Source: Ornithinimicrobium sp. F0845
Lineage (GTDB): Bacteria > Actinomycetota > Actinomycetes > Actinomycetales > Dermatophilaceae
NCBI RefSeq assembly: GCF_023015765.1
Contig: NZ_JALKAL010000016.1
Span: 1,965-65,964 of the forward strand
DNA length: 64,000 nt
Direction of reading: 5' to 3'
The notes beneath the pieces were generated by a model. It searched no databases. It had not been told where the DNA came from and was given only the letters and a program-made list of their open reading frames with translations. Shown here one piece after another: positions 17,211-53,122 of this stretch; position 1 is the stretch's first letter, and each line of letters starts with the position of its first letter. The translations under genes were made by a program, and so were the position numbers.

Positions 17211-17212
17211 GG

Positions 17213-21548: not shown

Positions 21549-21632
21549 GAGGTGCCTTTCCCAGGTGTCTGGCCGCCAGACCTGCGGCTGACCGGGAACG
21601 GCTGCAACTCCTGGGCGAGCCTCGTCCACGAG

Positions 21633-21750: not shown

Positions 21751-21761
21751 ATTCGTTCGCC

Positions 21762-22784: not shown

Positions 22785-22794
22785 TCCTGCATGA
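22744..22794 (-). repeat. 17-bp tandem repeat, three copies
   Basis: Units 22744-22760, 22761-22777 and 22778-22794 are near-identical (minus strand TCGTGCAGGAGTGTCGG). Each contains AGGAG followed 8 nt later by the next unit's GTG, so the array mimics three ribosome-site/start pairs in different frames (17 is not a multiple of 3). It is 56 bp after the stop of the PoxB-like gene and overlaps the possible start of the 22095 gene. Confidence 0.88.
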
Positions 22795-22849
22795 CCGGTC
22801 CTGCTGCACCATCGGCAGCAGGCGTTGCGCGTCGACGAGACCGCCGACC

Positions 22850-29650: not shown

Positions 29651-29772
29651 CGTGACACTGGTGCGCCCTGTGCACCAGGCTGGGGGATGGTGCGTGTCTG
29701 ACACCAATCACAGGTGACGGTGCGTGTCGTGCACCAGCCTAAGGATGGTGCGTGTCCGACACCGATGTCACG
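29651..29772 (+). repeat. 28-30-bp repeat array bounded by an inverted repeat
   Basis: GGTGCG starts units at 29660, 29689, 29719 and 29747 (periods 29, 30, 28). Copies 2-4 begin GGTGCGTGTC. Units contain short palindromes such as GGTGCGTGTCGTGCACC and GTGTCCGACAC. CGTGACA (29651-29657) and TGTCACG (29766-29772) bracket the array as an inverted repeat. It occupies the 260-bp gap between two convergent genes, which holds no gene. Confidence 0.82.
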
Positions 29773-32146: not shown

Positions 32147-33147
32147 CCCCAGGAACGAGCCCGAGGATGACCCAAGCCATGGCCGACCCGGCCGCCGTGC
32201 GGCGCGTGCGTCGTGCCCATCTCACCGCGACCGTCCTGGTGGCCGCCGTCAGCGCGGCCGCCCTCCTGCTGGTCTTCCTCCTCTACGCTGGCGACCTGCC
32301 GGACCGGATCGCCACGCACTTCGACCTCTCAGGGCAACCCAACGACGACATGGCCCGGGGAGGTGCGCTGGCCCTGTTCGGCCTCGTCGGGATCGGGGTG
32401 CCCGCCGTTCTCATCGCGGTGTTCGGGGCAGCCCAGTGGTGGCGCGGGGAGTGGGCCCGTGCGTTCGCGGGATTCCTCGCCGGCTTCTCGGTGTGGCTCA
32501 GCGCGCTCTTCTGCGGGCTCGTCGTCGCCAACCGGGGCGCTGCCGTTCCCGAGGAGGTCACGCTGGACCCGTGGCTGATGCTGGGCGGCCTGGTCCTGGG
32601 GCTGGTCGTCGGGATCATCGTGGCGCTCGTGGTGCCCCGCGGCATCCCGCACGATGCACCGGAGGCGGTCACCCCGGTGGCCCTCGCGCCGACCGAGCGG
32701 GCCTCCTGGTTCGGCCGGGCGCAGCTGGGCCGGCTCCCGGTGCTCGCGCTGGCCGCCAGCGTGCTGGTGCTCGTGATCGCGACGGTCGCCAGCGGCATCT
32801 GGTGGCTGTGGCTCATTGCGGCACTGGTGGCGCTGCTGGTCGTGGCGGTGACCAGCTTCGTGGTGACGGTCGATGCCTCCGGCGTGACCTGGCGCTCGGC
32901 GATCGGCCTCCCGCGCGGCCACATCCCGCTGTCAGAGGTCACCGACGCCGCGGTCGTCGAGATGTCGCCGTCCGACTTCGGCGGCTTCGGTCTGCGGATG
33001 ACGCCCGGCGGCCTCGGCCTCATCACGCGACGGGGCACCGCACTGCAGGTCACGCACGGCAAGCGCCGCTTCGTGGCCACCGTCGACGACGCGGCCACCG
33101 GCGCCGGTCTCCTGTTGGGCTACCTGGAGGCCGGCCACCGCCGCTGA
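32143..33147 (+). CDS. DUF1648 domain membrane protein
   Basis: A 334-aa membrane protein. The first helix precedes the DUF1648 signature LPDRIATHFDLSGQPND (near residues 52-68). Further helices are near 80-95, 110-130, 145-165, 205-225 and 230-250. The C-terminal 85 residues are a soluble PH-like domain (VVTVDASGVTWRSAIGLPRG, VTHGKRRFVATVDD). DUF1648 is often paired with YtrA-type regulators in proposed cell-envelope stress systems (known association, unknown mechanism). Its stop codon lies in a 16-bp tandem repeat. Confidence 0.87.
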   Translation: MTPGTSPRMTQAMADPAAVRRVRRAHLTATVLVAAVSAAALLLVFLLYAGDLPDRIATHFDLSGQPNDDMARGGALALFGLVGIGVPAVLIAVFGAAQWWRGEWARAFAGFLAGFSVWLSALFCGLVVANRGAAVPEEVTLDPWLMLGGLVLGLVVGIIVALVVPRGIPHDAPEAVTPVALAPTERASWFGRAQLGRLPVLALAASVLVLVIATVASGIWWLWLIAALVALLVVAVTSFVVTVDASGVTWRSAIGLPRGHIPLSEVTDAAVVEMSPSDFGGFGLRMTPGGLGLITRRGTALQVTHGKRRFVATVDDAATGAGLLLGYLEAGHRR

Positions 33148-33174
33148 CCTGCACCGCCGCTGACCTGCACCGGC
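33136..33174 (+). repeat. 16-bp tandem repeat spanning the DUF1648 stop
   Basis: CACCGCCGCTGACCTG occurs at 33136-33151 and again at 33152-33167, with a third partial start CACCGGC at 33168. The TGA in the first copy (33145-33147) is the stop codon, and the second copy carries another TGA in a different frame. Confidence 0.92.
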
Positions 33175-33259
33175 GCGGCCGGGGGAACAGTCCTCCGGTC
33201 GGGCTGGTTGCCCGGAGGAACGGAGCTCGCAGCTCACCACCGACAGATGGAGGTCAGTC

Positions 33260-33919
33260 ATGCCCAGGATCGCGATCATCGGAGGACACGGAAAGGTGGC
33301 GCTGCACCTGGCGCGCCAGCTCACGGGCCGGGGGGACGAGGTCACCTCGATCTTCCGCAACCCCGAGCACGAGGCCGACGTGGCCGGGACCGGTGCCGCA
33401 CCCCTGGTGCTCGACGTCGAGTCCGCGGACACCGAGGCGCTCGCGGCCGCGTTGGCCGGGCACGACGCTGTGGTGTGGTCGGCCGGGGCCGGCGGCGGCA
33501 ACCCCGCACGGACCAACGCCGTGGACCGGGACGCCGCGATCGCCTCGATGGAGGCGGCGGCGCAGGCCGGCGCCTACCGCTACGTGATGGTCTCCTATCG
33601 CGGCGCGGGCCGGGACGAGATCCCCGCGGACAACCCCTTCAGCACGTATGCCGAGGCGAAGGCCGTCGCCGACGCCCACCTGCGCGCGACCGGGCTGCAG
33701 TGGACGATCGTGGCGCCGGGCGGGCTCGACCTCGAACCGGGCTCGGGCACCATCCACCTCGACGCGGACTACGACCGATCGCTGGACGGCACGAGCGTGT
33801 CCCGCGAGGACGTGGCGGCCGTGATCGCGGCGGTGCTGGCCGACGACACCACCATCGGCCGGGCCCTTGAGTTCGTCGGCGGCAGCCAGCCGATCGCGGA
33901 GGCGCTCGCCACGGCCTGA
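33260..33919 (+). CDS. NAD(P)H-binding atypical SDR protein
   Basis: A 219-aa Rossmann-fold protein. IAIIGGHGKVALHLARQLTG is the dinucleotide loop, and VVWSAGAGGGNPARTNAVDR, YAEAKAVADAHLRATGLQWT (YxxxK-like) and TIVAPGGL follow the YtbQ/YwnB-type atypical SDR pattern. The substrate is unknown. GGAGG precedes the ATG at 33260 (ATGGAGGTCAGTCATG). It lies 112 bp after the DUF1648 gene, probably a separate unit. Confidence 0.87.
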   Translation: MPRIAIIGGHGKVALHLARQLTGRGDEVTSIFRNPEHEADVAGTGAAPLVLDVESADTEALAAALAGHDAVVWSAGAGGGNPARTNAVDRDAAIASMEAAAQAGAYRYVMVSYRGAGRDEIPADNPFSTYAEAKAVADAHLRATGLQWTIVAPGGLDLEPGSGTIHLDADYDRSLDGTSVSREDVAAVIAAVLADDTTIGRALEFVGGSQPIAEALATA

Positions 33920-33985
33920 CGGGCCCTGCGTCCGGGGGGCCGGCTCGGCACGACGACGGGTCGGTGCCCGCCTAGCCTGGGAAGG

Positions 33986-34171
33986 GTGAGGCGCCCCCTG
34001 GTTCATCGAGGCCTGCCTGAGCAACGCGCTGCGCATGGAGCAGTACTGCGCCGACGCCGAGCGCGACGGCGACCAGGAGCTCGTCGACCTCTTCACCAAG
34101 GCGCAGGCTGATAGCCGCAAGGGCGCCGAGCTGGGCAAGAAGCTGCTCGGTCAGCGCCCGGCGCCAACTGA
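33986..34171 (+). pseudogene. small helical protein gene with apparent frameshift
   Basis: TAGCCT (33973-33978) ends 8 nt before a GTG at 33986, a normal leaderless start. However, the protein-like frame (APWFIEACLSNALRMEQYCA, ADSRKGAELGKKLLG) is shifted by one base from it and is preceded directly by TGA. One C fewer in the CCCCC run at 33994-33998 would join GTG to the frame. The frame then runs on past the expected end into the downstream hairpin, while a TGA at 34169 lies in the GTG frame. The predicted product is a short helix-rich protein that I cannot name. Mutation or homopolymer error are both possible. Confidence 0.5.
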
Positions 34172-34185
34172 TCACGAGCCCGACC

Positions 34186-34224
34186 CGTGCACCACGACGT
34201 CGCTGGTCGACGTCGTGGTGCACG
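34186..34224. terminator. 17-bp stem terminator between convergent genes
   Basis: CGTGCACCACGACGTCG (34186-34202) pairs perfectly with 34208-34224 around a CTGGT loop. It lies 29 bp from the stop of the ABC permease and just beyond the small broken gene, so it probably serves both directions. Confidence 0.85.
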
Positions 34225-34252
34225 AGGTCCGGGGTGCTGGAAGGGGCGACAC

Positions 34253-35257
34253 TCAGTCGACGTCGCGCCGCCGGAACACCACCCAGGAGAGCAGGATCAC
34301 GGCCACGCCCACCAGGCCGATCACGGCGGCCCCGTGCTCCAGCGAGATGCGCGTGACGACCTCACGACACTCGCCGTCGAACCCGTCGTCGCACACCCAG
34401 TTGTAGATCTGGTGGCCGTCGTTGACCCACGCGATGAGGTTCTCGCTCAGCAGATACCTCGCCCGCTCCGGGAACAGGCCGCGCACCATGTTCTCCACAA
34501 CGAGCAGATAGCCGACGGCGATCCCGAGCACGGCTCCGGTGTGCTTCAGCAGGAGCCCGGCGGCCGCGCCGACCATGCCGAGGAAGACCGCCAGCGCCAC
34601 GATCCGGCCACTCGTCCACGCCAGATCGGTCCACTGCGTCGCCGTCATCGCGTCGTCCACGCCCCGGATCCGATAGAGCAGCGGGACCCCCAGCAGGATG
34701 ATGGCCAGGAACACCGCAGTGATCGGGATCGCCACCAGGCCGGACGCGAGCACCTTGCTGGCGAAGACCCGGTCCCGCCGTGGCTCGAAGGTCAGCCAGG
34801 TGCCCAGTGTCCGGTGGGCGATCTCGGCGGCGGTGGCCGTCGAGCCGCCCAGCAGCACCAGGAAGAACACCAGGGTCCCGGTCTGTTGCAGCTGGCTGGT
34901 CGCGAGGTCGGCCATCGGCGGCGGGGCGTAGCCGGCGAGCATCTCATCCAGCGTCGGCTCGGGCCACTCACAGCCGAAGTCGATCGTCTGGTCACCGATC
35001 CGCTCGCGCTCGGCCTCCTGCTCCTCCAGGCACTGCTCGATGAACTCCTCGTCCCGGAACTCCTGCTCCTGCTCCCACTGCTCGTGGACCTGCTCGAAGT
35101 CCTGCCGCGCCTGCTCCTCGAACGCCGACTGCGGCTGCACGCTCTGCCACAGGCCCCAGAAGGTCAGGAGCGCGACGGCCAGGATGGCCAGCACGGACAG
35201 GTGGACGATCTTGCGGGAGAAGATGCGCCGCAGCTCGACGCGGGTCAGCTGGGTCAT
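34253..35257 (-). CDS. ABC-2 type transporter permease
   Basis: A 334-aa permease. One helix lies near residues 18-36, then a long charged extracytoplasmic segment (residues 40-125, Glu/Gln-rich with two Cys), then five helices from 130 to 325, a topology typical of ABC-2/DUF3533-like exporters. FFLVLLGGSTATAAEIAHRT and FEPRRDRVFASKVLASGLVA match the family pattern. It overlaps the ATPase gene by four bases. The cargo is unknown. Confidence 0.87.
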   Translation of the reverse strand: MTQLTRVELRRIFSRKIVHLSVLAILAVALLTFWGLWQSVQPQSAFEEQARQDFEQVHEQWEQEQEFRDEEFIEQCLEEQEAERERIGDQTIDFGCEWPEPTLDEMLAGYAPPPMADLATSQLQQTGTLVFFLVLLGGSTATAAEIAHRTLGTWLTFEPRRDRVFASKVLASGLVAIPITAVFLAIILLGVPLLYRIRGVDDAMTATQWTDLAWTSGRIVALAVFLGMVGAAAGLLLKHTGAVLGIAVGYLLVVENMVRGLFPERARYLLSENLIAWVNDGHQIYNWVCDDGFDGECREVVTRISLEHGAAVIGLVGVAVILLSWVVFRRRDVD

Positions 35258-36303
35258 CGGCCGGCCTCCTCGTCGGCGTCGGCAGTATGCCGTGAGCCGG
35301 GTGAGCCCGGTCCCGCGCCACCCGGGGCGCTCGGTGGGGTGGGGGTGCCCTCGGGTGGGGGTGGAGTGGCGCCGAGCTGGTCGGCCTGGGTCAGCTGGAG
35401 GAAGACCGACTCCAGGTCGAGGTGCACGGGCAGGAGACGGTCGACGTACAGCCCCTGCGCGGCCAGGGCCCGGGTGATGTCGGCGGGCCGGTCGACACCG
35501 GTGACCCGCAGGCCGCCCGGGGCCAGGTCCGCGGTCATCCCGGCCCGGCGGAGGACCGCGACCGCGGCCTCCGGGTTGTCGACGCCGACGTCCACCCCTC
35601 CGGTCTCGGCCTCGTTGATCAGGCTGGCGACCGACCCCTGTGCCACCACCTGACCGCGTCCGATGATGGAGACGGTGTCGGCGATCTGCTCGATCTCGGA
35701 CAGGATGTGGCTGCTCACCAGCACGGTGCGGCCCTGCGTGCCCAGGTTGCGCATGGTCTCGCGGATCTCCCGGATGCCAGCGGGGTCCAGGCCGTTGGTG
35801 GGCTCGTCAAAGATCAGCAGGTCGGGCGACTTGAGCAGGGTCGCCGCAATGGCCAGGCGCTGCTTCATCCCGAGGGAGTAGCCGGCGAAGCGGTCGTCCC
35901 CGCGGTCGGCCAGACCCACCTCCTCGAGCACCTCGCCGACCCGGCGCTGGTCGGTGCCGATCGCCTGGGCCAGCAGGCTCAGGCTCCTGCGGCCGGTGAA
36001 GGTGGGATAGAACTTCGGGCTCTCCACGATGGCGCCGACCCGGGCGATGACGTGCGGCAGCCGCTGCGGCACCGGCTGGCCGAAGATGTGCATCGTCCCG
36101 CTGTCCGCGCGCAGCAGCCCCAGCAGCATCCGGATCGTCGTGGTCTTGCCCGAGCCGTTCGGCCCCAGGAACCCGTGGACACCCCCGGCGGGCACGTCCA
36201 GGTCGAGACCGTGGATCGCGACGCGACGCCCCCTGATCCCCCGGAAGGTCTTGCGCAACCCACGCGTCGCGACGGCGAGGCCGTCATCGGCAACCAGTTC
36301 CAC
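35254..36303 (-). CDS. ABC transporter ATP-binding protein
   Basis: A 349-aa ATPase. Walker A is GPNGSGKTTT (near residue 49-58), the signature is GYSLGMKQRL, Walker B is LLIFDEPTNGLDP, and the H-loop is VLVSSHIL. The C-terminal 40 residues (PPPPEGTPTPPSAPGGAGP) are Pro/Gly-rich and atypical. It pairs with the ABC-2 permease as an exporter and sits in the block that separates lipB from lipA. The nearby YtrA-type regulator may control it, although it is on the other strand (inference). Confidence 0.93.
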   Translation of the reverse strand: MELVADDGLAVATRGLRKTFRGIRGRRVAIHGLDLDVPAGGVHGFLGPNGSGKTTTIRMLLGLLRADSGTMHIFGQPVPQRLPHVIARVGAIVESPKFYPTFTGRRSLSLLAQAIGTDQRRVGEVLEEVGLADRGDDRFAGYSLGMKQRLAIAATLLKSPDLLIFDEPTNGLDPAGIREIRETMRNLGTQGRTVLVSSHILSEIEQIADTVSIIGRGQVVAQGSVASLINEAETGGVDVGVDNPEAAVAVLRRAGMTADLAPGGLRVTGVDRPADITRALAAQGLYVDRLLPVHLDLESVFLQLTQADQLGATPPPPEGTPTPPSAPGGAGPGSPGSRHTADADEEAGR

Positions 36304-36349
36304 GGCATACTCCCATCGGCACCCGGCCGCACGGGAAGGTGCCGGGCGG

Positions 36350-37003
36350 TCAGGCCATTGTGGCTGCCGGCGTGCCCGCGGCGATCCGCGACACGCGGGC
36401 CTCGACCAGCGGGAGGATCTCGGCGACGGTGACGTGCCGGCCCAGCTCGGCGGTCAGGGTGGTGACACCCGCGTCGGCGATGCCGCACGGGATGATCGCG
36501 TCCGCCCAGGACAGGTCGCAGTCGGCGTTGAAGGAGAAGCCGTGCATCGTCACGTCGTGGCTGACCCGGATGCCGATCGCGCCGATCTTGCGGTCCGGGC
36601 CGCGGTCGTCGGCCAGCACCCAGACGCCGCTGCGGCCCTCGACCCGGGTCGTGGCCAGGCCCAGCTCCGCGCAGACGTCGATGAGCAGGTCCTCCAGGCG
36701 CCGGACGTGCGCGACGACGTCGACGGGGGAGGGCAGCCGCACGATGGGGTAGCCGACCAGCTGTCCCGGCCCGTGCCAGGTGATCTTGCCGCCGCGGTCG
36801 ACGTCGATGACCGGCGTGCCGTCGGTGGGGCGCTCGTGGTCCTCGGTGCGCTTGCCGGCGGTGTAGACGGCGGCGTGCTCCAGCAGCAGGATCGAGTCGG
36901 GCAGCTCACCGGCGACGACCTGGGCGTGCACGGCGCGCTGGTGGTCCCAGGCCTGCTGGTAGTCGACGAGGTCCGGGGCGAAGCCGACGTGCTCGATGCG
37001 CAT
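36350..37003 (-). CDS. lipB: lipoyl(octanoyl) transferase
   Basis: A 217-aa enzyme moving octanoyl groups from acyl carrier protein to lipoyl domains. RTEDHERP with [20 protein letters not shown] is the family core. [10 protein letters not shown] provides the catalytic Lys and IIPCGI the catalytic Cys. The ATG at 37003 is used. In Mycobacterium lipB directly precedes lipA; here 4.7 kb of other genes separate them. It is divergent from the protein kinase gene (74 bp between starts). Confidence 0.96.
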
Positions 37004-37077
37004 GGCCGCCACTGTACGCCGGGCGGGTTGTGGACAACTTCTGCGGGCACGGGGCGACCTGGTGCAGGGTGCGGGGC

Positions 37078-38727
37078 ATGGATGTCCCACGGATCCCCGG
37101 ATATGACGTGCTCGGCCGCATCGGTGCCGGGTCGAGCGCGCAGGTGTGGCGGGCCCGGCGGGTGGCCGACGACCTCGACGTGGCGCTCAAGGTCGTCCCG
37201 ACGCGCGCCGAGGACGTCTCCGCCGCGCTGCGGGAGGCCGGCGTGCTCGCCCGGGTGCGGCACGAGCACGTCATCCACCTGTATGACGTGCTGCCGGTCC
37301 CCGGGGCCGGTGGCCGTCCCGGTGGGGTCGCCCTGGCGATGGAGCTGGCGGCAGGCGGGTCCCTCGCCGAGGTGCTGGGCGCGCGTGGCCACCTGACGCC
37401 GGGGGAGGTGGTCACCGTCGGGTCGCCGCTGGCCGGCGCCCTGGCCGAGCTGCACCGGGCCGGTGTGGTGCACGGCGACATCGCACCGGGCAACGTGCTG
37501 TTCCGGGAGGACGGGATGCCGCTGCTGGCCGACCTCGGCGTGTCCCGCATCGCGGGGGAGCAACGGACGGACACCTACGGCACCGACGGCATGGTCGCAC
37601 CCGAGGTGCTGGAGGGGTTCGCGCCGACGGCCGAGTCCGACGTCTACGGCCTGGGCGCCCTCGCCTGGCTCTGCCTGGTCGGTGAAACGCCCGGCTGGGC
37701 CGGCACGCGGACCGCGCTCGCGGACCTGCGGCCGGAGCTGCCCGAGCCACTCGTGGCCCTGGTGACCTCGTGCCTGGCCTCCGAGCCGGCCGAGCGGCCC
37801 GACGCCGAGGAGCTCGCGGTGGCGCTGCTCGCGGCGGCGCGGCCCGAGCCGGTGGTGCTGGCCCCCGGCGCCGATCCGGCGGCCGGCCTCACCCAGCGGA
37901 TCCGCTCCGAGCGCCCGGACCCCGACCCGGAGGAGCAGCCGGTCCGGAGCGCGCACCCCCGGGCGCTGCACCGGGCCGAGGGGCGCGTGGCTGTCCGCTC
38001 CGGACGCCCTTCGGTGCGGTGGCTGGTGGCCGGTGCCGGTGCGGCGGTGGTCCTGGTGCTCGCGGTGGCCGGTGCCGTCGGGGCGCTGCTCGGTCCGGAC
38101 GAGCCTGCCGGGGACACGGCGCTTTCCCAGACCGGCGCGGTGGCCGAGGCCGTGAGCCTGGTCGACCCCGGTGACAACGCAGCCACCACGGTCGAGCCCT
38201 CTGAGGCCGGGCGAGAAACCACAGAGACCTCCGTGGCCGAGCCCACGGATCCCGGGCGAGGCCCGGCACGAACCTCCGTGGCTGACGCCACGGAGCCCCG
38301 GTCCAGCACGGCAGAAACCCCCACGGCCGGGACCCCCGCGGCCGGTGCCGTGCTGGATCCGGTGGATGAGCCCCAGGTCGCGGTGCAGCGGTTGCTCGAC
38401 GCGCGGGCTGCCGCGTGGCGGTCCGGTGACGCTGGCGACCTGGCGGAGGCCCTGGCGCCCGGCTCACCGGCTCACGAGCAGGAGCAGGAGTCCCTGTCGG
38501 ACGCGCAGGACCTCAAGGTGAGCTATCGCGAGCTGGTGTTCACGGTCACCGACGCCTCGGTGCTCGCGTCCGGGCCGGATCGTGCGGTGCTCGGTGTGGA
38601 CGTCGAGCGATCTAAATACCTCGAGGTGGGACCGGCGGGCACCCTCCAGCACGAGGCGCGGGCCGACACGGTCGAGGTGGAGCTGCGCCGCGCGGAGGAC
38701 GGGTGGCGGATCTGGGGGTGGGGCTGA
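37078..38727 (+). CDS. membrane-anchored serine/threonine protein kinase
   Basis: A 549-aa Pkn-type kinase. [14 protein letters not shown] is the glycine loop, and Lys38 in VALKVV and the Mg-loop LLADLGVSR (DLG, not DFG) are present. The catalytic loop is [11 protein letters not shown] with Asp134; Gly replaces the Arg of HRD, so activation-loop control is probably atypical. APEVLEG follows. One transmembrane helix lies at about 315-340. A Thr/Glu/Ala/Pro-rich linker and an outer domain of about 120 residues ([20 protein letters not shown] onward, NTF2-like in appearance) follow. Ligand unknown. Confidence 0.9.
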
Positions 38728-38734
38728 GGGTTCC

Positions 38735-39742
38735 CTACATGGCCCGGACGGGTCGTCGCCACGGGCGCGGCATCCGCATCGTCAGGACGCGTCCGGTGGG
38801 CTTGGCGACCTCGGGGCTGGTCAGCGGGTCGCTCCCGTCCTCGTTCGGCGGGGCCACCGGGAAGGCCGGCAACGCCGCCACCAGCTGGAAGGTGCGCTCC
38901 CAGCCCGAGGGAGAGAGCGGGTCGGCGTCCGTGAGGTCGTAGGCGATGAACCACTCGCCGACGATCTCGGCGTCGCGGGGTTGGCGCGAGTGCGTCAGCA
39001 GCGTGGTCACTCGCTCGGAGAAGAGGGAGGCCGCCCACCGCTCGGTGCCGGCGGTGGCCCGGACGAGCTGGCGGTCCGAGACAGGCGGCTCCTGGGTCTC
39101 GGTGTCGAAGGCGGTGAACTCCGCGAAGGGCAGGGGGACCTGCCCGATGCGAACGGCCAGGTAGCGGCAGCTTCCCTCGTCCAGTGGTGTGCCGCCTCCG
39201 CGCGGCTCGCCCGAGCTCCAGCACTCGGTGGCGACGTGACACTGGCGGCCGCCCTGCACCCACGCGACGACGTCCAGCCGCACCCGGTGCTCGTCCAGAC
39301 CGCGACCGAAGATCCGGCCGGGCAGGTCAGCCGGCGTGGCCACCGGCACGGCGTGGAAGCCGTTGTCCCTCGCAAACGACATCAGGCGATAGGGGTCGCG
39401 CCAGCCCTCGGCCAGCTGCCTCACCCGGCGCTGAAGGACCACCCAGCTCAGCCCGAGAGCGAGGGTCGCCAGGAGCGCCGCGGCGGAGAGGCCACCGGTG
39501 TTGCCCCGGTCGGTCAGCTCGAGGATCCCGGCAGCCACGCTGAGGGCCCCGCAGACCAATGTCAGTGCCGCCACGACGCCGACCCAGGTCGACGCTCTCA
39601 GCGCCGGACCCCTGGCCTCGGAGCCATGGGTGTTCTCACCCCGGTCGTCGTGCGCGGTCTCGCGCAGCACGCTCTCGCGCCAGGCTGCGACCTTGCGGGG
39701 CGAGGCCTTCGCCCGCAGCGCGGAATACCTGATCGGGCCCAT
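38735..39742 (-). CDS. hypothetical membrane protein with large cytoplasmic domain
   Basis: A 335-aa protein. Residues 50-105 hold two hydrophobic helices (STWVGVVAALTLVCGALSVA; LSAAALLATLALGLSWVVLQ). The remainder is soluble, with RRVRQLAEGWRDPYRLMSFA and CHVATECWSSGEPRGGGT. I do not recognise a family. Its stop is 7 bp from the kinase stop (convergent). The 39743-39981 gap upstream contains its likely promoter and no further gene; short stretches there resemble nothing known to me. Confidence 0.7.
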   Translation of the reverse strand: MGPIRYSALRAKASPRKVAAWRESVLRETAHDDRGENTHGSEARGPALRASTWVGVVAALTLVCGALSVAAGILELTDRGNTGGLSAAALLATLALGLSWVVLQRRVRQLAEGWRDPYRLMSFARDNGFHAVPVATPADLPGRIFGRGLDEHRVRLDVVAWVQGGRQCHVATECWSSGEPRGGGTPLDEGSCRYLAVRIGQVPLPFAEFTAFDTETQEPPVSDRQLVRATAGTERWAASLFSERVTTLLTHSRQPRDAEIVGEWFIAYDLTDADPLSPSGWERTFQLVAALPAFPVAPPNEDGSDPLTSPEVAKPTGRVLTMRMPRPWRRPVRAM

Positions 39743-39981
39743 GACGCGCTCACACCACCCGTCGACCGAACTGGCCGGGTGGGGCCGGGCGCTGGCCGAC
39801 CGCGGTAGCCGGCCCTACCACTCCTGACACGGGGGTGAGTCCCCGAGACGTACCCATGACCGTACGTTAGCCCCATCAGTCACATGAATCACGCACGCCA
39901 CGCGTGTCACACCGGAGGTCGCCTGCCCCGGCACGACTCCACGACGAGAGGCCGGGCTGCTCGTCCGGCCGCGCGGGTTGC

Positions 39982-42412: not shown

Positions 42413-42460
42413 GGTGTGTCCGCCTCTCGCTGAGGGACCTGACGAGAGGCCCGGGGTGGG

Positions 42461-44383: not shown

Positions 44384-44460
44384 TCGACGTCTCCTCGTCC
44401 GGGGCCTTGCAGTCTACGGATACTCCTGCCGTCTGGCAGGACGGGTGTGGTGGTGTTGCC

Positions 44461-45849: not shown

Positions 45850-45904
45850 GTGAGCATCTTGTCAAACACTGGGCCAGCCGACCACCGAGGGTAATCTCGC
45901 CCCT

Positions 45905-46258
45905 ATGGCGTGGTGGAGACGACGGAAGAACCAGGCGACGAGCGGGGGCGGCGCGGAGGCCGGTGGCCGCAAGGACGGGCCCTCGATGGCGATCGATCAC
46001 AAGGCCGTGCGCGCCTACACGGAGGGGTGGGTGGCCAGCCACAAGGGCGTCGAGGCGTATGTCGAGCCGGCCACCAACGTGAGCACCACGACGCTGATCC
46101 TCATCGCGACCGACGGCGAGTGGACGCGCCGGGCGGTCGGCACGCCCAAGGCGGGGTTCGAGCTCGGCCGCCTGCTCGGCATCCCGGTGTATGACGTGAA
46201 CCAGACCGGCTACCCGGCCCGGATGCGGGAGTGGAACCGGCGCCACAAGCAGCGCTGA
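45905..46258 (+). CDS. conserved actinobacterial hypothetical protein
   Basis: A 117-aa protein. A basic, Gly-rich N-terminus (WWRRRKNQATSGGG) precedes a compact domain: HKAVRAYTEGWVASHKGVEA, STTTLILIATDGEWTRRAVG, GRLLGIPVYDVNQTGYP. Homologues near lpd are sometimes labelled oxidoreductase, but no cofactor motif is visible and I assign none. TAATCT (45892-45897) ends 8 nt before the ATG, so the transcript is probably leaderless. It is divergent from lpd. Confidence 0.75.
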   Translation: MAWWRRRKNQATSGGGAEAGGRKDGPSMAIDHKAVRAYTEGWVASHKGVEAYVEPATNVSTTTLILIATDGEWTRRAVGTPKAGFELGRLLGIPVYDVNQTGYPARMREWNRRHKQR

Positions 46259-46340
46259 GCCGCCCTGGCGGATAAGGGGTCGTGCCGACGCCCGGTCCGT
46301 GACAGGCTGACCGCAACGGACGACTACCTGGAGGTGGCCC

Positions 46341-46550
46341 ATGACGCAGGACAAGCCGACGGACCAGAGCAGCGGCAGCGCGCACGTCGAGGACGACGTC
46401 AAGCGCAAGTTCCGCGAGGCGCTGGAGAAGAAGCAGGGCCACGGGGGCAAGGACGTCTCGGACCACTCCGAGCACGGCAAGGTGGATCACGCGGCCCGCG
46501 CCAAGACCTCCGGTGCCCAGCAGATGTTCCGGCGCAAGAGCGGCGGCTGA
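46341..46550 (+). CDS. DUF5302 family protein
   Basis: A 69-aa hydrophilic protein with the family pattern VKRKFREALEKK, GKVDHAARAKTSGAQQMFRR and KSGG at the end. The charge pattern suggests a disordered or small helical protein; function unknown. A GGAGG eight bases before the ATG gives a clear start. It lies 82 bp after the previous gene and is followed by a strong terminator. Confidence 0.85.
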   Translation: MTQDKPTDQSSGSAHVEDDVKRKFREALEKKQGHGGKDVSDHSEHGKVDHAARAKTSGAQQMFRRKSGG

Positions 46551-46610
46551 GCCGCACGAGGGTGCCGTCGGGCGTGGGCGCCCCACGGGACGCTCAGCCC
46601 CTTCGCGACG

Positions 46611-46643
46611 GGTGCCCCGGGTCCTGATCGGACCCGGGGCACC
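46611..46643 (+). terminator. 14-bp stem terminator
   Basis: GGTGCCCCGGGTCC pairs with GGACCCGGGGCACC around TGATC, 60 bp beyond the DUF5302 stop. There is no T-run, as is common in high-GC actinobacteria. The 46551-46896 gap holds this terminator and two repeat arrays but no gene. Confidence 0.85.
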
Positions 46644-46662
46644 GGTGTGTCGAGCTCCCATG

Positions 46663-46718
46663 TGTTGCCGGAACGCCCCCTCTGTGGCCCGAACGTTCCC
46701 TCCGTTGCCGAAAACGGC
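46663..46718 (+). repeat. 20-bp tandem repeat (GTGGC-ACGTTCC family)
   Basis: Three units begin at 46663, 46683 and 46703 (TGTTGCCGGAACGCCCCCTC, TGTGGCCCGAACGTTCCCTC, then CGTTGCCGAAAACGGC). The period is exactly 20 bp. The word GTGGC...ACGTTCC also builds the array at 21.9-22.1 kb, so the two loci appear related. Confidence 0.75.
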
Positions 46719-46817
46719 TGTGCGAGATCGGCGCCCCAGCGCTGAATCGGCACGAGACGGGGTGCCGGCGAGGCTGGGCCGCGCGCGGGCCGAGCCTCGG
46801 ATGGGGACTGGCTGAGC

Positions 46818-46899
46818 GTCAGACGGAGGACGACGCCGTCAGGGACGGGACGGCGCGGTCAGGGGCGGACAACGCCGTCAGGGGCGGACGGGGCCGTCA
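46818..46899 (-). repeat. 19-20-bp tandem repeat spanning the pepA stop
   Basis: On the minus strand, units start with the TGA stop of pepA and repeat: TGACGGCCCCGTCCGCCCC, TGACGGCGTTGTCCGCCCC, then TGACCGCGCCG and TGACGGCGTCG units, ending TGACGC. The spacing of TGA is 19, 19, 20 and 20 bp, which places stops in all three frames. Confidence 0.9.
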
Positions 46900-48393
46900 G
46901 GCGTAGGACTGGGCCAACTCGATCAGCGCTCGGACGCCCGAGCCCGTGCCACCGGTGGGGGTGTAGCCCCAGGCGGACTTCTCGTTGAAGGCCGGGCCGG
47001 CGATGTCGATGTGTGACCACTTGATGGTCTCGCCGGCGTCGTTCTTGCCCACGAACTCCTCGAGGAACTTCGCGGCGACCATCATCCCGCCGGCGCGGTC
47101 GCCGGTGTGCTTGAGGTCGGCGACGGGGGAGTCCATCGAGCCGCGGATCTCCTCCGGCAGCGGCATGCCCCAGGCGGCCTCGCCGACGAGGCTCGCGGCG
47201 CCGGTGACCCGCTCGCGCAGCTCGTCGTCGTTGGCCATGACACCCATCGTGCGGTTGCCCAGCGCGATCACGCAGGCACCGGTGAGGGTGGCGATGTCGA
47301 CGATGGCGTCCGGCTTGTGCTCGGAGGCCAGGGCGATGCCGTCGGCCATCACCAGGCGGCCCTCGGCGTCGGTGTTGATGATCTCGACGGTGCGGCCGCC
47401 GCGCATGGTGACGATGTCACCAGGACGCTGGGCCAGGTCGCCGGTCATGTTCTCGGCCAGGCAGAGGTAGCCGGTCACCGCGACCGGCACCTTGAGCTCG
47501 GCCAGCGCCAGGACGGCCGCGGCCACCGCGGCGGCCCCGGCCATGTCGCACTTCATCGTGACCATGCCGGTGCCGGGCTTGATGCACAGACCCCCGGAGT
47601 CGAAGGTGATGCCCTTGCCGACGAAGGCCAGGTGAGCCTTGGCGCCGCGCGGCTTGTAGGTCATCGTCACCAGGCGGGGCGGGCGACCGGAGCCCTGGCC
47701 GACCCCGAGGATCCCGCCGCAGCCCTCGGCCTGCAACTTGTCGGCGTCCCACACCTCGAGCTTGACCTTGCTGCCCGCGGCGCGCTTGCTCACCGAGGTC
47801 GCGAAGCTCTCCGGGAAGAGCACGTTGGGCGGGGTGTTGACCAGGTCGCGGGCGTAGCGGACGGCGTCGGCCACGACACTGGCCTGACCGGCGACGTCCT
47901 CCTTGTGACGGCCCTTGACGTGCACCTGCGCAGCCTCCAGCGGAGCCTTCGCGCTGGACGACTTCCCCTCACCGAGGAAGGTCTGGAAGGCGTAGGCGCC
48001 CAGGAGCACCCCCTCGGCCACCGCCCGCGCGTGCTCGGCACCGCCGAGGGCGAACAGCGCGGACTTCTTGCCCGCCAGTGCGCGCGCCCCGGCGCCCGCG
48101 GCACGGCGGTAGCGCTCGGCGGCGTCCGGCACCGCGGCGTCGGCCTTGCCCGTGCCCACGACGAGCACCAGGCCTGCCGAGACGCCCGGGACGCCGGCGA
48201 AGGTGGCGACCTCGTCGGCCTTGCCGGTGGCCCCGGTGGCGGTCAGGTTGCTGGTCAGGTGAGTCCTGGCGTTCTTGGGCAGGTCGGTGCCCTCGGCGAG
48301 CACCGCGCCGTCCGTTCCCGCGGTCGAGGCCACCACAAGGGCGTCGACCTTTGCACTCGCGATCTTGCCGTCGGTGAGTGTCAGAGTGGTCAT
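46897..48393 (-). CDS. pepA: leucyl aminopeptidase (M17)
   Basis: A 498-aa cytosol aminopeptidase. Metal and active-site residues lie in [31 protein letters not shown] and the M17 signature [31 protein letters not shown] and [14 protein letters not shown] complete the catalytic domain. The first 170 residues form the usual variable N-terminal domain. It hydrolyses N-terminal amino acids from peptides. ATG at 48393 gives the typical MTTLTLT start. It is divergent from gcvT, as in Mycobacterium (pepB/gcvT). Confidence 0.95.
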
Positions 48394-48434
48394 CGTCGTC
48401 CATTCAGTTCGTCGGTCAGGGCGTTGGGGCCGCA

Positions 48435-48463
48435 TTGAGCCTAACGGTCGACGCGGATAGGTT
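48435..48463 (+). promoter_or_regulatory. gcvT promoter
   Basis: TTGAGC (48435-48440) and TAGGTT (48458-48463) are separated by 17 bp. The -10 ends 8 nt before the gcvT ATG, so the mRNA would start at or next to the initiation codon. No glycine riboswitch fits in the 77-bp divergent gap. Confidence 0.8.
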
Positions 48464-48470
48464 GAGCCAC

Positions 48471-49571
48471 ATGTCCCCTGAGCAGCAGAACATCTCGCCC
48501 GTCCACGATCGCCACATCGCCCTCGGGGCGAAGATGGCCGACTTCAGCGGGTGGCAGATGCCGATCGAGTATGCCGGGGTGAAGGCCGAGCACACGGCCG
48601 TCCGTGAGCGGGTGGGCATCTTCGATGTCAGTCACCTGGGCAAGGCGCTGGTGCGCGGCCCCGGCGCCAAGGACTTCGTGAACAGCTGCTTCACCAACGA
48701 CCTCAACCGGATCGAGCCGGGCCGGGCGCAGTACACCATGTGCTGCAACGAGCGGGGTGGCGTCGTGGACGACCTCATCGCCTATCTGAAGTCCGACGAC
48801 GAGGTCTTCCTCATCCCCAACGCGGCGAACAACGCCGAGGTGGTGCGCCTGCTCACCGAGGCCGCGCCCGACGGGATCGAGGTGATCAACCAGCACACGA
48901 CATACGGCGTCATCGCGGTGCAGGGCACCAAGAGCGACGAGGTGCTGACCGCGCTGGGCCTGCCGGTCGGGCACGACTACATGACCTATGTCGAGACCGA
49001 CTGGGAGGGGCAGCCGGTCATCGTCTGCCGCACCGGCTACACGGGGGAGCGCGGCTATGAGCTGCTGCCCGCATGGGCCGCGACCGGCGAGCTGTGGGAC
49101 GCCCTGGTGATGGCGATGAAGCCGCACGACGGTGCCCCGGCCGGGCTCGGCGCGCGGGACACGCTGCGCACCGAGATGGGGTATGCCCTGCACGGCAACG
49201 AGCTCTCCACCGAGATCACCCCGGTGATGGCCCGGGCCGGGTGGGCGGTCGGCTGGAAGAAGGACACGTTCTGGGGCAAGGAGGCCCTGGAGGCCGAGCG
49301 GGAGGCCAAGAGCACCCGGATCTCCTGGGGCCTGGACGTCACCGGGCGCGGCATCCCGCGGGCCGGGTGCGAGGTCAAGGACGCCGGGGGTGCCGTGATC
49401 GGCACGGTCACCTCCGGCACCTTCTCGCCCACCCTCGGCAAGGGCGTCGCGCTCGCCCTGCTGGACCGCAGCGCGGCCGAGGGCGACGACGTGGTCATCG
49501 ACGTGCGTGGCCGGGACGTCACCGCGCAGGTGAAGAAGCCCCCGTTCGTCGAGGTCGGCGTCCGCGAGTAG
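48471..49571 (+). CDS. gcvT: glycine cleavage system T protein (aminomethyltransferase)
   Basis: A 366-aa folate enzyme. [70 protein letters not shown] and the C-terminal [16 protein letters not shown] are GcvT signatures. It transfers the aminomethyl carbon of glycine to tetrahydrofolate. No gcvP or gcvH is in the window, although the lipoyl machinery needed by GcvH is nearby. It is monocistronic, with a leaderless start. Confidence 0.95.
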
Positions 49572-49587
49572 CCCCCAATTTGATAGG

Positions 49588-50385
49588 GGTTTTGCTGCCG
49601 GATCCGCAATTTTGATAGTGGTTTTGCTGGTGGCCTACGCATCTCCCAGGGTCGGGCTGCCTTCGGCGGTTGCGGCGCCTCGCTGGTCCGTTAGTCCTGA
49701 CGAGCGGCTGCCTTCGCCTGCACCAGTTCCTCGACCGCCTCGGGCATCGTGGTCTCGAAGTCGAGCAGCTTGACCCAGGTGGGCGTGACCCGGATGACCA
49801 CCATCTGGTCGTAGAGGCCCTTCACTCCGGCCTCCCACCCGGGGTACTGGTCCTCGGCCATCGAGCGGCGCCCGGCCTTGAGGTAGCCGGGGGGTGGGCC
49901 GTCGACGGTCTCGAGCTCAGCGGTGCCCCGGACCAGCAACACCTTGGGCGGGAACGCGTTGGTGTCGATGGTGATGGCCACCTTCGGCCTGGTCCGCAGC
50001 GCTGCCACCTTCCGCGCTTTCGGTGCCGTCGCCATCGCGATCTGCTCGCCCTCGGTCCAGAAGCCGATCGGGATCACGCGTGGGTCGCCGTCGAGGCCGT
50101 CGTAGGCGAGGCGGAGCGGGCCTGTCCCGTTCAGCAGCTGCTGAGCGTAGGGCGTGGCGAGGATGTCGCTGATCTGGTGCTGATTCACGGTTCTTTGCCT
50201 TCCGTTGTCGGTCGCTCTCACTGGGAGGACGGAGCTGCCTCAGAGTTCTCGACATCCGACCGCTCCGGTGGACGGTGCGGCCCCCTGCGAGGTGGAGCTG
50301 GAAGCACACGACACCACGAGCGAGAACCCGTCGGCGCGGCGGCCTGCAAAACCACTATCAAAATTGCGGATCCGGCAGCAAAACC
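49588..50385. repeat. 40-bp perfect inverted repeat flanking the PPOX gene
   Basis: The arm 49588-49627 (GGTTTTGCTGCCGGATCC at its start, GATAGTGGTTTTGC at its end) is the exact reverse complement of 50346-50385. Each arm starts close to a stop codon: 17 bp after that of gcvT on the left, 2 bp after that of the dehydrogenase on the right. Each arm and its flank contain two or three copies of a TTGATAGTGGTTTTG-like core (31-bp period) related to the 17.1-kb array. No transposase or recombinase lies between the arms. Confidence 0.92.
49691..50188 (-). CDS. pyridoxamine 5'-phosphate oxidase (PPOX) family protein
   Basis: A 165-aa split-barrel flavin-type protein. LRLAYDGLDGDPRVIPIGFW, KVAALRTRPKVAITIDTNAF and KVLLVRGTAELETVDG follow the PPOX/F420-binding fold. 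The cofactor (FMN or F420) is not determinable. GTG at 50188 follows GGAAGG and gives the expected N-terminus; an upstream in-frame ATG at 50221 is possible. It is the only gene between the arms of the 40-bp inverted repeat and might form an invertible or mobile unit with them (inference). Confidence 0.85.
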   Translation of the reverse strand: MNQHQISDILATPYAQQLLNGTGPLRLAYDGLDGDPRVIPIGFWTEGEQIAMATAPKARKVAALRTRPKVAITIDTNAFPPKVLLVRGTAELETVDGPPPGYLKAGRRSMAEDQYPGWEAGVKGLYDQMVVIRVTPTWVKLLDFETTMPEAVEELVQAKAAARQD

Positions 50386-50386
50386 A

Positions 50387-51460
50387 CTACAAGAATGCGT
50401 GGAGGACGGCGTCGGCCACCTGCGTCGTCGTGGCGGTGCCGTCGAGGTCCGGGGTCTTGATCCCGGCGGTGAGCGAGGCCTCCATCGCCGCGACCAGCTC
50501 GGCGGCTGCCTGCGGGTGCCCGAGGTGGTCAAGCATCATCGAGGCGGTCCAGATCATCCCGAGCGGGTTGGCGATGCCCCGCCCGGCGATGTCGGGCGCG
50601 GACCCGTGCACCGGCTCGAACATCGAGGGGTGCTCGCCCTCGGGGTTCAGGTTGCCCGACGGCGCGATGCCGATGCTGCCGATGATCGCCGCGCCGAGGT
50701 CGGTCAGGATGTCGCCGAACAGGTTGGAGGCGACGACCACGTCGAAACGACCCGGGTCCAGCACGAACTGCGCGGCCAGGGCATCGATGTGGTAGTCGCG
50801 GACCTCGACGTCCGGGTAGGCCTCCGCGGTCGCGTGCACCACCTCGTCCCAGAACGGCATCGTGTGGATGATGCCGTTGGACTTGGTGGCCGACGCCAGC
50901 CCGCCCCCGCGCCCCCGGGCCAGCTCGAGGGCGAACCGCGCCGCGCGCTCGACACCGCGCCGGGTGAAGACCGCCTCCTGGATGGCCACCTCGTGCTCGG
51001 TGCCGCGATAGAGCCGGCCGCCCGCCTCGGAGTACTCACCCTCGTTGTTCTCCCGGACGACCAGGAAGTCGATGTCGGTGCCCTCGCGGACCTTCAGCGG
51101 GGACTCGATGCCGGGGAGCAGCTTGATGGGGCGGAGGTTGATGTACTGCTGGAAGGCGCGGCGGATCGGGATGAGCAGCCCCCACAGGGACACCTGGTCG
51201 GGCACCCCGGGGAAGCCCACGGCGCCCAGCAGGATCTGGTCGGCCTGGGCCAGCTGCTCGATGCCGTCCTCGGGCATCATCGAGCCGGTGCGCGCGTAGT
51301 GCTCACAGCTCCAGTCGTGGTGCTGCCAGGCGAAGTCGATGCCGTGGCGTCCGCCCACCGCCTCGAGGATCCTCAGGGTCGGCTCCATGACCTCGGTGCC
51401 GATCCCGTCGCCGGGGATGACGGCGACCTTGACAGTATGAGGTGCCTCAGGTGATGACAT
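50387..51460 (-). CDS. D-malate / tartrate dehydrogenase (decarboxylating)
   Basis: A 357-aa member of the isocitrate/isopropylmalate dehydrogenase superfamily. VAVIPGDGIGTEVMEPTLRI, the substrate loop SLWGLLIPIRRAFQQYINLR, and NLFGDILTDLGAAIIGSIGI, FEPVHGSAPDIAGRGIANPL are clear. The WGLL-PIRR-FQQYINLRP-KLLPGI pattern matches tartrate/D-malate dehydrogenases (TtuC/DmlA) rather than LeuB. It uses NAD and a divalent metal to oxidise and decarboxylate a 2-hydroxyacid. The last codons and TAG stop are the first copy of a 31-bp repeat. Confidence 0.88.
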   Translation of the reverse strand: MSSPEAPHTVKVAVIPGDGIGTEVMEPTLRILEAVGGRHGIDFAWQHHDWSCEHYARTGSMMPEDGIEQLAQADQILLGAVGFPGVPDQVSLWGLLIPIRRAFQQYINLRPIKLLPGIESPLKVREGTDIDFLVVRENNEGEYSEAGGRLYRGTEHEVAIQEAVFTRRGVERAARFALELARGRGGGLASATKSNGIIHTMPFWDEVVHATAEAYPDVEVRDYHIDALAAQFVLDPGRFDVVVASNLFGDILTDLGAAIIGSIGIAPSGNLNPEGEHPSMFEPVHGSAPDIAGRGIANPLGMIWTASMMLDHLGHPQAAAELVAAMEASLTAGIKTPDLDGTATTTQVADAVLHAFL

Positions 51461-51523
51461 GGGGGGTGGCCTCCAGCGGTGGTCGGGTTCTGCCCCAGCG
51501 TAGGGGAGGGCCGGCGGGCTGGT

Positions 51524-52417
51524 TCAGCGGGTCAGCCGCGCCGCGTCGCCCGCCGCGCGGGCCAGCTTCTCCGGGTTGCGCACCAGGTAGAGCGCGGTCA
51601 CCAGGCCGCCCTCGACGCGCATCGTCGCCACCACGTCCAGCACGCCGTCGGCGTAGACGCGCATCGCGGGCTGGCCGTTGACCTGCGCCGTGTCGAAGGC
51701 GATCTCGCCGGTGTACTGCCCGAGGACGCCCACCAGGAAGCGCATCGACTTCTCCGCGCCGTGGATCGGTCGCAGCGCCGCCTGCCGCAGGCCGCCGCCG
51801 TCGGTGAAGAGCACCACGTCGGGTGCCAGCAGCTCCATGAGCGGCTGCAGGTCGCCGCCGGCGGCCGCCTCGAGGAACCGCTGCAGCACCGCGTCCAGCT
51901 CCGCCGTCGGCGCGGGCTCGGGGCGCTGGCTGCGGACCGCCCGACCGGCCCGGCTGGCCACCTGGCGCACCGCCGCCGGTGACTTGTCGACCGCCGCCGC
52001 GATCTCGGCATACTCGAAACCGAAGACCTCCCGGAGGACGAAGACGGCCCGCTCAGTGGGGGAGAGGGTCTCCAGGACCATGAGCATCGCGGTGGAGACC
52101 GAGTCGGCGAGCTCCACGTCCTCGGCGACGTCCGGTGCGGTGAGCAGCGGCTCGGGCAGCCACGGCCCGACGTAGGTCTCGCGGCGGCGCTGCAGGGTGC
52201 GGATCCGGTTCAGCGCCTGGCGGGTGACGATGCGCACCAGGTAGGCGCGCGGGTCGCGGACCGCCGACTGGTCCACGTCGGCCCAGCGCAGCCAGGTCTC
52301 CTGCACCACGTCCTCGGCGTCGGCGGCGGAGGAGAGCATCTCGTAGGCCACCGTGAAGAGCAGGTTGCGGTGCTGCAGGAAGGGGTCGCTCCCTCCATCG
52401 TTCACGCCATCGCTCAC
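51524..52417 (-). CDS. ECF41-family RNA polymerase sigma factor
   Basis: A 297-aa extracytoplasmic-function sigma factor. Region 2 is FTVAYEMLSSAADAEDVVQE, and region 4 is LSPTERAVFVLREVFGFEYA with DKSPAAVRQVASRA. All three ECF41 marks are present: WLPEPL in the linker, DGGG in the SnoaL-like C-terminal domain, and NPEKL near the end. In this group the C-terminal domain tunes activity in place of a membrane anti-sigma factor. GTG at 52417 overlaps the upstream CMD gene by four bases. Confidence 0.93.
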   Translation of the reverse strand: MSDGVNDGGSDPFLQHRNLLFTVAYEMLSSAADAEDVVQETWLRWADVDQSAVRDPRAYLVRIVTRQALNRIRTLQRRRETYVGPWLPEPLLTAPDVAEDVELADSVSTAMLMVLETLSPTERAVFVLREVFGFEYAEIAAAVDKSPAAVRQVASRAGRAVRSQRPEPAPTAELDAVLQRFLEAAAGGDLQPLMELLAPDVVLFTDGGGLRQAALRPIHGAEKSMRFLVGVLGQYTGEIAFDTAQVNGQPAMRVYADGVLDVVATMRVEGGLVTALYLVRNPEKLARAAGDAARLTR

Positions 52418-52980
52418 CGGGCCAACGGTGCCAGGTCGCAGGAGTCGGCGAAACCCTGGGAGGCCAGCCCCATGGCCGCGTTGGTGCGCGAGCGGAGGTT
52501 CTCCACCGAGATCATCTCGGTCAGCTCCACCAGCGCGGCGCTGCCGAGCTGCTCGTGCAGTCCGGCCACCATCTCGTCGGTCACCTCCAGCGGGGTGACG
52601 CTCATCGCCTCGGCGTAGGCCATCACGTCGCGCTCGAGCGGGGTGAAGACGTCGCTGTCGCGCCACACCGGGACCTGGCGCACCTTCGCCTCGTCCAGCC
52701 CCTCGGTGTGCGCCAGGTAGTAGCCGAAGTCCATGCACCAGGTGCACCCGATCGTGGCAGCGGTGGCCATCGTGGCGTAGGCCTTCAGGTGCGGGTCGCA
52801 CGCCGAGAGCCGGCTCATCCTGCGCTCGAAGGCGAAGACCGCTCGGGTCAGGGGGCGGTGGTGCAGGAAGACGTAGGCCACGTCGGGGACCTCGCCGTAG
52901 GTGCGACGCGCGTAGATGCTCATGGCCCGGCCAAACCATCCGCTCAGGTCGGCCTTGGGGATCCGGAACGTGCTGGGCAT
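52414..52980 (-). CDS. carboxymuconolactone decarboxylase / AhpD-like protein (ECF41 partner)
   Basis: A 188-aa AhpD-fold protein. GCTWCMDFGYYLAHTEGLDE carries the CxxC redox pair and the proton-relay His. LERDVMAYAEAMSVTPLEVT is the usual second helix segment. Carboxymuconolactone decarboxylases are one of the standard ECF41 partner types and typical targets of the linked sigma factor. ATG at 52980 follows GGAGCACC. An ECF41-type promoter lies 50-76 bp upstream. Confidence 0.9.
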   Translation of the reverse strand: MPSTFRIPKADLSGWFGRAMSIYARRTYGEVPDVAYVFLHHRPLTRAVFAFERRMSRLSACDPHLKAYATMATAATIGCTWCMDFGYYLAHTEGLDEAKVRQVPVWRDSDVFTPLERDVMAYAEAMSVTPLEVTDEMVAGLHEQLGSAALVELTEMISVENLRSRTNAAMGLASQGFADSCDLAPLAR

Positions 52981-53029
52981 CTGGTGCTCCACTCCTATTG
53001 GTGGCCCCTGGTGGGCCGGCTGACCATGA

Positions 53030-53056
53030 GACACCGCGGGTGCCGGATCTGTGACA
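53030..53056 (-). promoter_or_regulatory. ECF41-type promoter
   Basis: On the minus strand TGTCACA (53056-53050), 16 bp, then TGTC (53033-53030). The published consensus for this sigma group is TGTCACA-n16-CGTC, so only one base of the -10 differs. Placement upstream of the decarboxylase-sigma operon fits autoregulation. Confidence 0.8.
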
Positions 53057-53122
53057 GCGGGGGGGTATGCCGGAGCTCACCGGGTCCGTGACATCGGCGC
53101 GAGTATGCCGCAGGTCACCGGG
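53047..53122 (-). repeat. 38-bp direct repeat spanning the cobU stop
   Basis: TCACCGGGTC at 53077 and 53115 marks two copies, 38 bp apart. Shared flanks are GTATGCCGGAGC/GTATGCCGCAGG and TGACAGCG/TGACATCG, plus a shorter third match near 53047. The cobU end ACCCGGTGA is reproduced in the downstream copy. The copies carry TGTCACA or TGTCACG, so the ECF41 -35 element lies inside the repeat. Confidence 0.82.

Follow-up and report, generated by a model that had tools for sequence, protein, structure and literature searches.

Why should short tandem repeats lie across the stop codons of unrelated genes? The question is raised by a stretch of 64,000 nucleotides from Ornithinimicrobium sp. F0845 (contig NZ_JALKAL010000016.1, positions 1,965 to 65,964; hereafter the window), in which the initial annotation had noticed five such arrays, at the ends of an SRPBCC gene, a DUF1648 gene, pepA, a dehydrogenase gene and cobU. 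All five are present and each crosses a stop codon, as found with Tandem Repeats Finder (TRF) for four of them and in the sequence and by motif search for the dehydrogenase array (50346-50400), which is not in the TRF list. The five arrays are two different things: four are local duplications, and the one at the dehydrogenase gene is a member of a dispersed element family. That this array belongs to such a family, and that the family is anchored at stop codons, we regard as practically certain. Its period is 32 bp rather than the 31 bp first given, and the repeat is not unique to the locus; the observation that units differ between loci holds for the other four arrays and fails for this one, and the statement that no single element is involved was wrong for the dehydrogenase locus. 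Gene names in the window are from Pfam families, and the gene ends in all counts depend on our own codon-bias caller.

The family element is an arm of about 58 bp, in which a head, CCCC(AATTTT), is followed by two similar units, sometimes three or four, with centres 32 bp apart, or about three helical turns. The consensus head is CCCCAATTTT and the common core GTAGTGGTTTTG, and there is a sub-family with a TTGGGGAGG core. The motif occurs seven times in the window, against 0.01 expected in shuffles, at 17127/17159/17191 (+), 49576/49608 (-) and 50348/50380 (+), with spans of 17127-17208, 49576-49625 and 50348-50397. The genome contains 74 matches at two mismatches or fewer, many of them in pairs or triples 32 bp apart, and none to the reversed pattern. 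A profile, built from 46 two-unit stretches of this genome and then iterated, was applied to a sample of 994,136 bases (0.99 Mb; the window plus 47 stretches, picked largely around motif sites) and gave 107 matches at E<0.1 forming 75 clusters, a count in which single units may be missed since the profile spans two; the reversed sequence gave 0 at E<0.1 and 5 at E<1. A sequence-only model of the whole genome, with 150 of 972 candidates scored, yielded at least 126 profile matches at E<=0.1, 104 of these at E<5e-6, some of the weaker ones being extra units of the same elements. When all intergenic regions of the motif-centred sample were compared with one another, 90 of 551 fell into one large component. 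Scored unit by unit, the first two units both pass in 74 of 75 elements, the single miss being the window copy near 50401, which is out of register in the profile and whose coordinates were corrected by hand for the alignment; a third unit passes in 29% of the elements anchored at stops, in 40% of those facing starts, in 36% of the others and in 9% of the unplaced ones. The spacer between units is more variable than the motif, and four of the strongest links between alignment columns join like letters exactly 32 apart, so both units share a sub-type. No description of the family was found among the matches listed in the open-access literature searched.

The restriction of the family to one clade of Ornithinimicrobium is well supported. 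Seven of 31 genomes of the genus carry many copies, namely the window's genome (G000), its sister genome G023 (98), G006 (90), G008 (47), G010 (94), G015 (75) and G019 (43), and the remaining 24 have one match each in G013 and G024 and none in 22. There was no match in 27 genomes of other genera, searched with filters able to lose weak matches, and a strict pattern scan of 84,980 species genomes, a collection that may omit records near the window's genome and in which several carriers seem to be missing, returned only O. cavernae and one metagenome-assembled genome (MAG). The locus of O. cavernae (KCTC 49018) equals that of G008 at 100% over 2001 bases, and G023 is taken to be the MAG, since the match positions agree. 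The pepA gene is 85-90% identical to that of G000 in the five other carriers found, against at most 71% in 15 other congeners searched, and G023 shares roughly 83-93% DNA identity with G000. The consensus of the first units varies by species, with TTTTG in 50 of 75 in G000 and TTTCG in 19 of 29 in G006 and 11 of 14 in G010, counts that come from the G000-based profile. A consensus that differs between species, together with the helical phasing of two direct repeats and their looser spacer, could suit operators of a clade-specific DNA-binding regulator or nucleoid protein, the position at stops being a by-product. We consider this quite improbable, because operators are expected upstream of genes whereas 3' ends are favoured here, and because the genes beside the four elements of the window are of unrelated types (Pfam).

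The anchoring of the family at stop codons is likewise well supported. In the pooled species the nearest boundary is a same-sense stop for 99 elements, and the head lies at -16 to +8 nt in 90 and at -3 to +3 in 57 of these 99, orthologous loci not being independent of one another in these counts; same-sense random placements outside genes fall at 0-8 in 5%. Forty heads in G000 have a same-sense stop nearest, 28 at -7 to +8, nine at -12 or -15 with the stop inside the element, and three at 15, 53 and 65. The heads lie at -12 to +3 in 15 of 16 cases in G006 and at -15 to +6 in 16 of 17 in G015 (with one at -26 in each), at -15 to +8 in 22 of 25 in G023, and at 55 for the single O. cavernae element. 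Forty-one elements outside genes face the start of the opposite gene, with a broad spread from -35 to 305. The dehydrogenase gene (Iso_dh) takes its last codons and its TAG from the element; its ortholog in G008 has a different end after residue 354. At the gcvT stop G000 has an element and, by eye, so do G008 and G010 in variant form, whereas none is seen in G006, G015 and G019; the position of the stop shifts by no more than a codon or two in either case. Also by eye, about four 32-bp-type units were seen at the gcvT 3' end of G010 (L162) and at least three at that of G008 (L159), with a GGTCTCG core. The 32-bp spacing rotates TAG between frames, as would suit the fail-safe stops proposed at first, yet the major sub-family with the TTGGGGAGG core carries no TAG, and that idea was abandoned for the dispersed family.

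Where a stop adjoins an element (offset -7 or more), TAA is used in 26 of 67 cases, with a background of 46 of 846 genes in the G000 sample, 7 of 135 in G015 and 14 of 144 in G006. This enrichment would fit an RNA element acting on translation termination, in which ribosomes would be slowed or stalled by the sequence just past the stop, an effect reported for Escherichia coli repetitive extragenic palindromic sequences (REPs) that lie within 15 nt of it. TAA is the stop read by both release factors, and REPs act through a stem-loop. The same distance rule is found for REPs in the available text of PMC12306157, which cites an earlier study that placed 260 of 496 E. coli REPs no further than 15 nt from a stop and itself counts 446 of 4,072. 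No comparable structure was found in the family, and the RNA 3'-end structure that the initial annotation had suggested is not borne out for it: RNAalifold over 75 element sequences returned 0 consensus pairs, and five single-element folds had z of -1.90, -0.07, -0.10, +1.03 and -0.22, the last four no better than shuffles. Two column links, 45-58 (complementary in 91% of rows) and 13-58 (in 88%), are isolated, with no neighbouring pairing columns, and so make no stem. A CCxC/GxGG hairpin was noticed by eye; mutual information shows no run of complementary columns. Neither the stable stem of an intrinsic terminator (stem plus U run) was detected, in the consensus fold of 75 or the five single folds, nor, among the 75 sequences, the palindromic stem-loop unit of a REP. 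With no conserved pair to set beside the REP stem-loop, and with antisense copies near starts unexplained, a role in translation termination is improbable.

Placement also depends on the direction of the element. In G000, convergent gaps, which make up 22% of gap bases, hold 23 of 59 placed elements, and divergent gaps, with 26%, hold 7; 16 of the 75 elements were left out as unclear. Between co-directional genes of four species, plus one O. cavernae element, less than 50 bp of gap remains beside 3 of 42 sense elements and 13 of 28 antisense ones (Fisher p 2.6e-4), and less than 80 bp beside 11 of 42 and 15 of 28 (p 0.025); at sense copies, space is left for a promoter of the following gene. 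The excess of 42 sense over 28 antisense copies in these pairs is not significant (p 0.12). The DNA beyond sense copies forms weaker hairpins, with a median of -19.0 versus -21.6 kcal/mol at control stops (p 0.004; 29 genes against 310 control stops). The placement and hairpin results are compatible with orientation-dependent termination of transcription at the element and are no proof of it.

Comparison of orthologous sites shows that the element is conserved. In 16 orthologous pairs between G000 and G023 the identity is 0.80 for the element and 0.83 for the 58 bp before the head, and 0.62 for the DNA beyond the element, with 0.60 for random sequence; 18 orthologs at stops are more alike (0.70-0.77) than non-orthologs (0.63-0.65). 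Conserved copies in non-coding DNA that is otherwise not conserved speak against a selfish, non-autonomous element without host function, similar to a miniature inverted-repeat transposable element (MITE) or a REPIN (REP doublet forming hairpins), that survives or inserts best just after stops and has inverted pairs as its complete form and single arms as remnants. Such an element would account for the fact that presence or absence varies at orthologous stops and that 19 neighbour pairs less than 3 kb apart occur among 104 listed elements, against 7.4 expected if uniform; 15 of these 19, and 10 of 11 pairs below 1 kb, are inverted with heads outward, three of them with tails only 4-15 bp apart. 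It would also account for the PNPOx gene flanked by near-identical inverted copies (49584-49635 is 92% complementary, over 52 nt, to 50338-50389). Most copies, however, are single arms, and stop anchoring alone would yield heads-outward pairs. The Y1 transposase (Y1_Tnp, PF01797), the REP-associated tyrosine transposase (RAYT), was found in 0 of 29 genomes, among them the five carriers G000, G006, G008, G010 and G015 (G019 and G023 were outside the set), in a search whose control was positive in 5 of 14. Ten proteins inside or beside inverted pairs include no transposase family, five having no family at all and one a sigma-70 region 4. We hold purely selfish spread to be a real but lesser possibility. 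A composite transposon around the PNPOx gene was considered and rejected, the genes inside and flanking it being ordinary (Pfam). Eleven alignments of G023 with G000 revealed no empty site with both flanks alignable up to the element, two of the eleven being known shared sites and some others shared, degenerate or misplaced. A palindromic element pair (L095:3854-3969; L134) fills a whole convergent gap; it is kept in G000 and G006 in one and the same position, and the tails are similar.

Conservation and the orientation rule favour a function at the 3' end, selfish spread being the main rival, and both may hold. The reading that we prefer, tentatively and with not quite an even chance, is that of a functional, polar 3'-boundary element, termination-like in its action and spread by copying. 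Such an element would act as the polar 3' boundary of a transcription unit, its head set against the stop of the preceding gene or the element supplying that stop; most likely the phased pair of units would be recognised in DNA by a protein, or RNA polymerase would pause on account of the T-rich non-template strand, so that transcription would end without a hairpin, and the family would have spread by copying within the genome. Several points weigh against it. Of the 29 orthologous stops sampled, 11 have no same-sense element in G000; for two of the 11 rows, which concern one stop (L086), the G000 element is reversed. The similarity of orthologs could partly reflect homogenisation, since both units share a sub-type. 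The 178 elements include 28 reversed in co-directional pairs, 12 between divergent genes, 12 unplaced and 32 inside called genes, some of the last probably through wrong start calls, and a simple terminator leaves all of these unexplained. Hairpins counted under cut-offs do not differ significantly (<=-20, p 0.08; <=-25, p 0.28; <=-30, p 0.06), the profile was built on G000, the orthologous loci are non-independent and the gene ends are self-called.

As compared to known repeats, the family shares with REPs, bacterial interspersed mosaic elements (BIMEs) and REPINs, as characterised in the available parts of PMC12306157 and PMC2817692, that it is short, dispersed, present in about a hundred copies or more, intergenic, clade-specific, often near a stop and sometimes in inverted pairs; high copy number and extragenic placement near stops are thus found in it. 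It differs in not being palindromic, in consisting of two direct repeats 32 bp apart and in having no Y1 transposase in the five carriers searched, and since neither palindrome nor transposase was found, it is set apart from REPs as a variant of dispersed intergenic repeats. The TAACTGA direct repeats of marine Beggiatoaceae, according to the accessible portion of PMC4679880, are also intergenic, occur in many sets without a predicted RNA fold and in some cases overlap stops, but they are 7-bp units mostly by start codons, whereas ours are 32-bp units at stops. Bacterial MITEs are likewise dispersed and non-coding with some inverted pairs heads outward, but the present family consists mostly of single arms and no transposase was found for it among the genomes and proteins searched.

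The SRPBCC, DUF1648, pepA and cobU arrays, by contrast to the dispersed member, fit ordinary locus-specific tandem duplications. They give 0, 1, 1 and 1 weak matches elsewhere, against 76 for the 32-bp member (L098). Copy number between strains, which the initial annotation had proposed to compare, differs at the DUF1648 array, with two full 16-mers here and one in sister G023, and the pepA array was not seen, by eye, at the pepA ends of five other carriers (the G023 pepA was not in that set). Successive TGAs in the pepA array lie at 0, 19, 38, 58 and 78, one in every frame, as first described. Since a gene ends at the first stop that is met, any array across a gene end necessarily carries that stop in its first copy, and the copies further downstream add no surprise. 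The four arrays fit locus-specific tandem repeats (variable number of tandem repeats, VNTR), from which the 32-bp family differs in being dispersed and in having a repeat number of mostly two. In cobU of G019 (L200), a 32-bp-type element whose TAA ends cobU was seen by eye where G000 has the 38-bp array.

The test of stop enrichment set by the initial annotation was run on the 0.99 Mb sample, with 929 stops and 459 non-overlapping TRF arrays whose placements were shuffled 200 times, either preserving coding or non-coding position (matched) or freely (unmatched). Of all arrays, 34 overlap a stop, against 26.7+-4.2 in matched (16/200 shuffles as high) and 20.2+-4.2 in unmatched placements (0/200). 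For strong non-family arrays (period >=10, score >=60, the 32-bp family removed because the sample was largely centred on motif sites), 24 of 179 overlap a stop, against 15.9+-3.5 matched (3/200) and 11.5+-3.4 unmatched (0/200). Starts are depleted, with 12 arrays overlapping a start against 29.8+-5.0 matched. Among the stop-spanning arrays with period >=10 (n=34), numerous dispersed relatives were found for the 32-bp family's member alone (76 matches, against 0-4 for the others). The array excess at stops is genuine and modest. The interpretation given at first is supported in part: gene 3' ends are indeed affected, but not by a single duplication process. The four duplications would be tolerated, as a repeat containing the stop codon leaves the protein unchanged, and such tolerance can account for the excess. 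The features discussed are collected in Table 1.

Table 1. Stop-codon arrays, family elements and the genes that they adjoin, in window coordinates.
Feature	Position	Strand	Basis
11-bp repeat x2.3 across TAA of SRPBCC gene	15559-15583	+	TRF, sequence
SRPBCC gene (Polyketide_cyc/SRPBCC)	15201-15569	+	Pfam
16-bp repeat x2.6 across TGA of DUF1648 gene	33136-33176	+	TRF, sequence
DUF1648 gene	32167-33147	+	Pfam
19/39-bp repeat across TGA of pepA	46828-46901	-	TRF, sequence
pepA (Peptidase_M17)	46897-48393	-	Pfam
38-bp repeat x2.2 across TGA of cobU	53043-53124	-	TRF, sequence
cobU (CobU)	53115-53705	-	Pfam
Two-unit element; supplies last codons and TAG (50387-50389) of Iso_dh gene	50344-50401	-	Sequence, motif, profile
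Isocitrate/isopropylmalate dehydrogenase-like gene (Iso_dh, PF00180), ended by element	50387-51460	-	Pfam
Two-unit element directly after TAG of GCV_T gene	49572-49629	+	Motif, profile
GCV_T-type gene (PF01571, PF08669), followed by element	48471-49571	+	Pfam
Three-unit element directly after TGA of gene 17213-18241 (NAD-epimerase/DUF1731)	17123-17212	-	TRF, motif, profile
TTGGGGA sub-family element at TGA of GNAT gene 12781-13530	12725-12782	-	Profile E 8e-7; C8:14690-14745

Other repeats were also observed. A 17-bp unit (ACCGACACTCCTGCACG) is repeated 3.2 times at 97% in window 22743-22797, just upstream of the called gene 22095-22721 (-), and a 28-30-bp repeat of about 2.7 copies with GGTGCGTGTC...GACACC half-palindromes lies at 29685-29763 between two convergent called genes. 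Elsewhere in G000 (C1, L061:7268-7683) there is a 206-bp tandem duplication of 99%, seemingly including a tRNA gene (by eye), with an N at the joint, and it may be an assembly artefact. The window also contains an S-adenosylmethionine (SAM) riboswitch (RF00162, 79 bits) at 21632-21751 (-), upstream of the called gene 20307-21548.

The dispersed repeats so far described near stops are, to our knowledge, mostly REPs, which are palindromic and have a transposase. A hairpin-free element built of direct repeats, lying within a few bases of the stop in several species and conserved amid drifting surroundings, would be another mark of gene ends. In its most specific form, which we think rather unlikely, the element would be a hairpin-free, orientation-dependent and sequence-specific transcription-end device, with a clade protein or RNA polymerase reading the two phased units at the stop. 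If so, on the order of a hundred gene ends in one lineage would share one copied terminator, and the device would have arisen once in the Ornithinimicrobium clade and partly replaced hairpin terminators. Because the genus contains both carriers and non-carriers, the question is directly testable, and the family may point to a novel terminator or DNA-binding factor in GC-rich actinobacteria.

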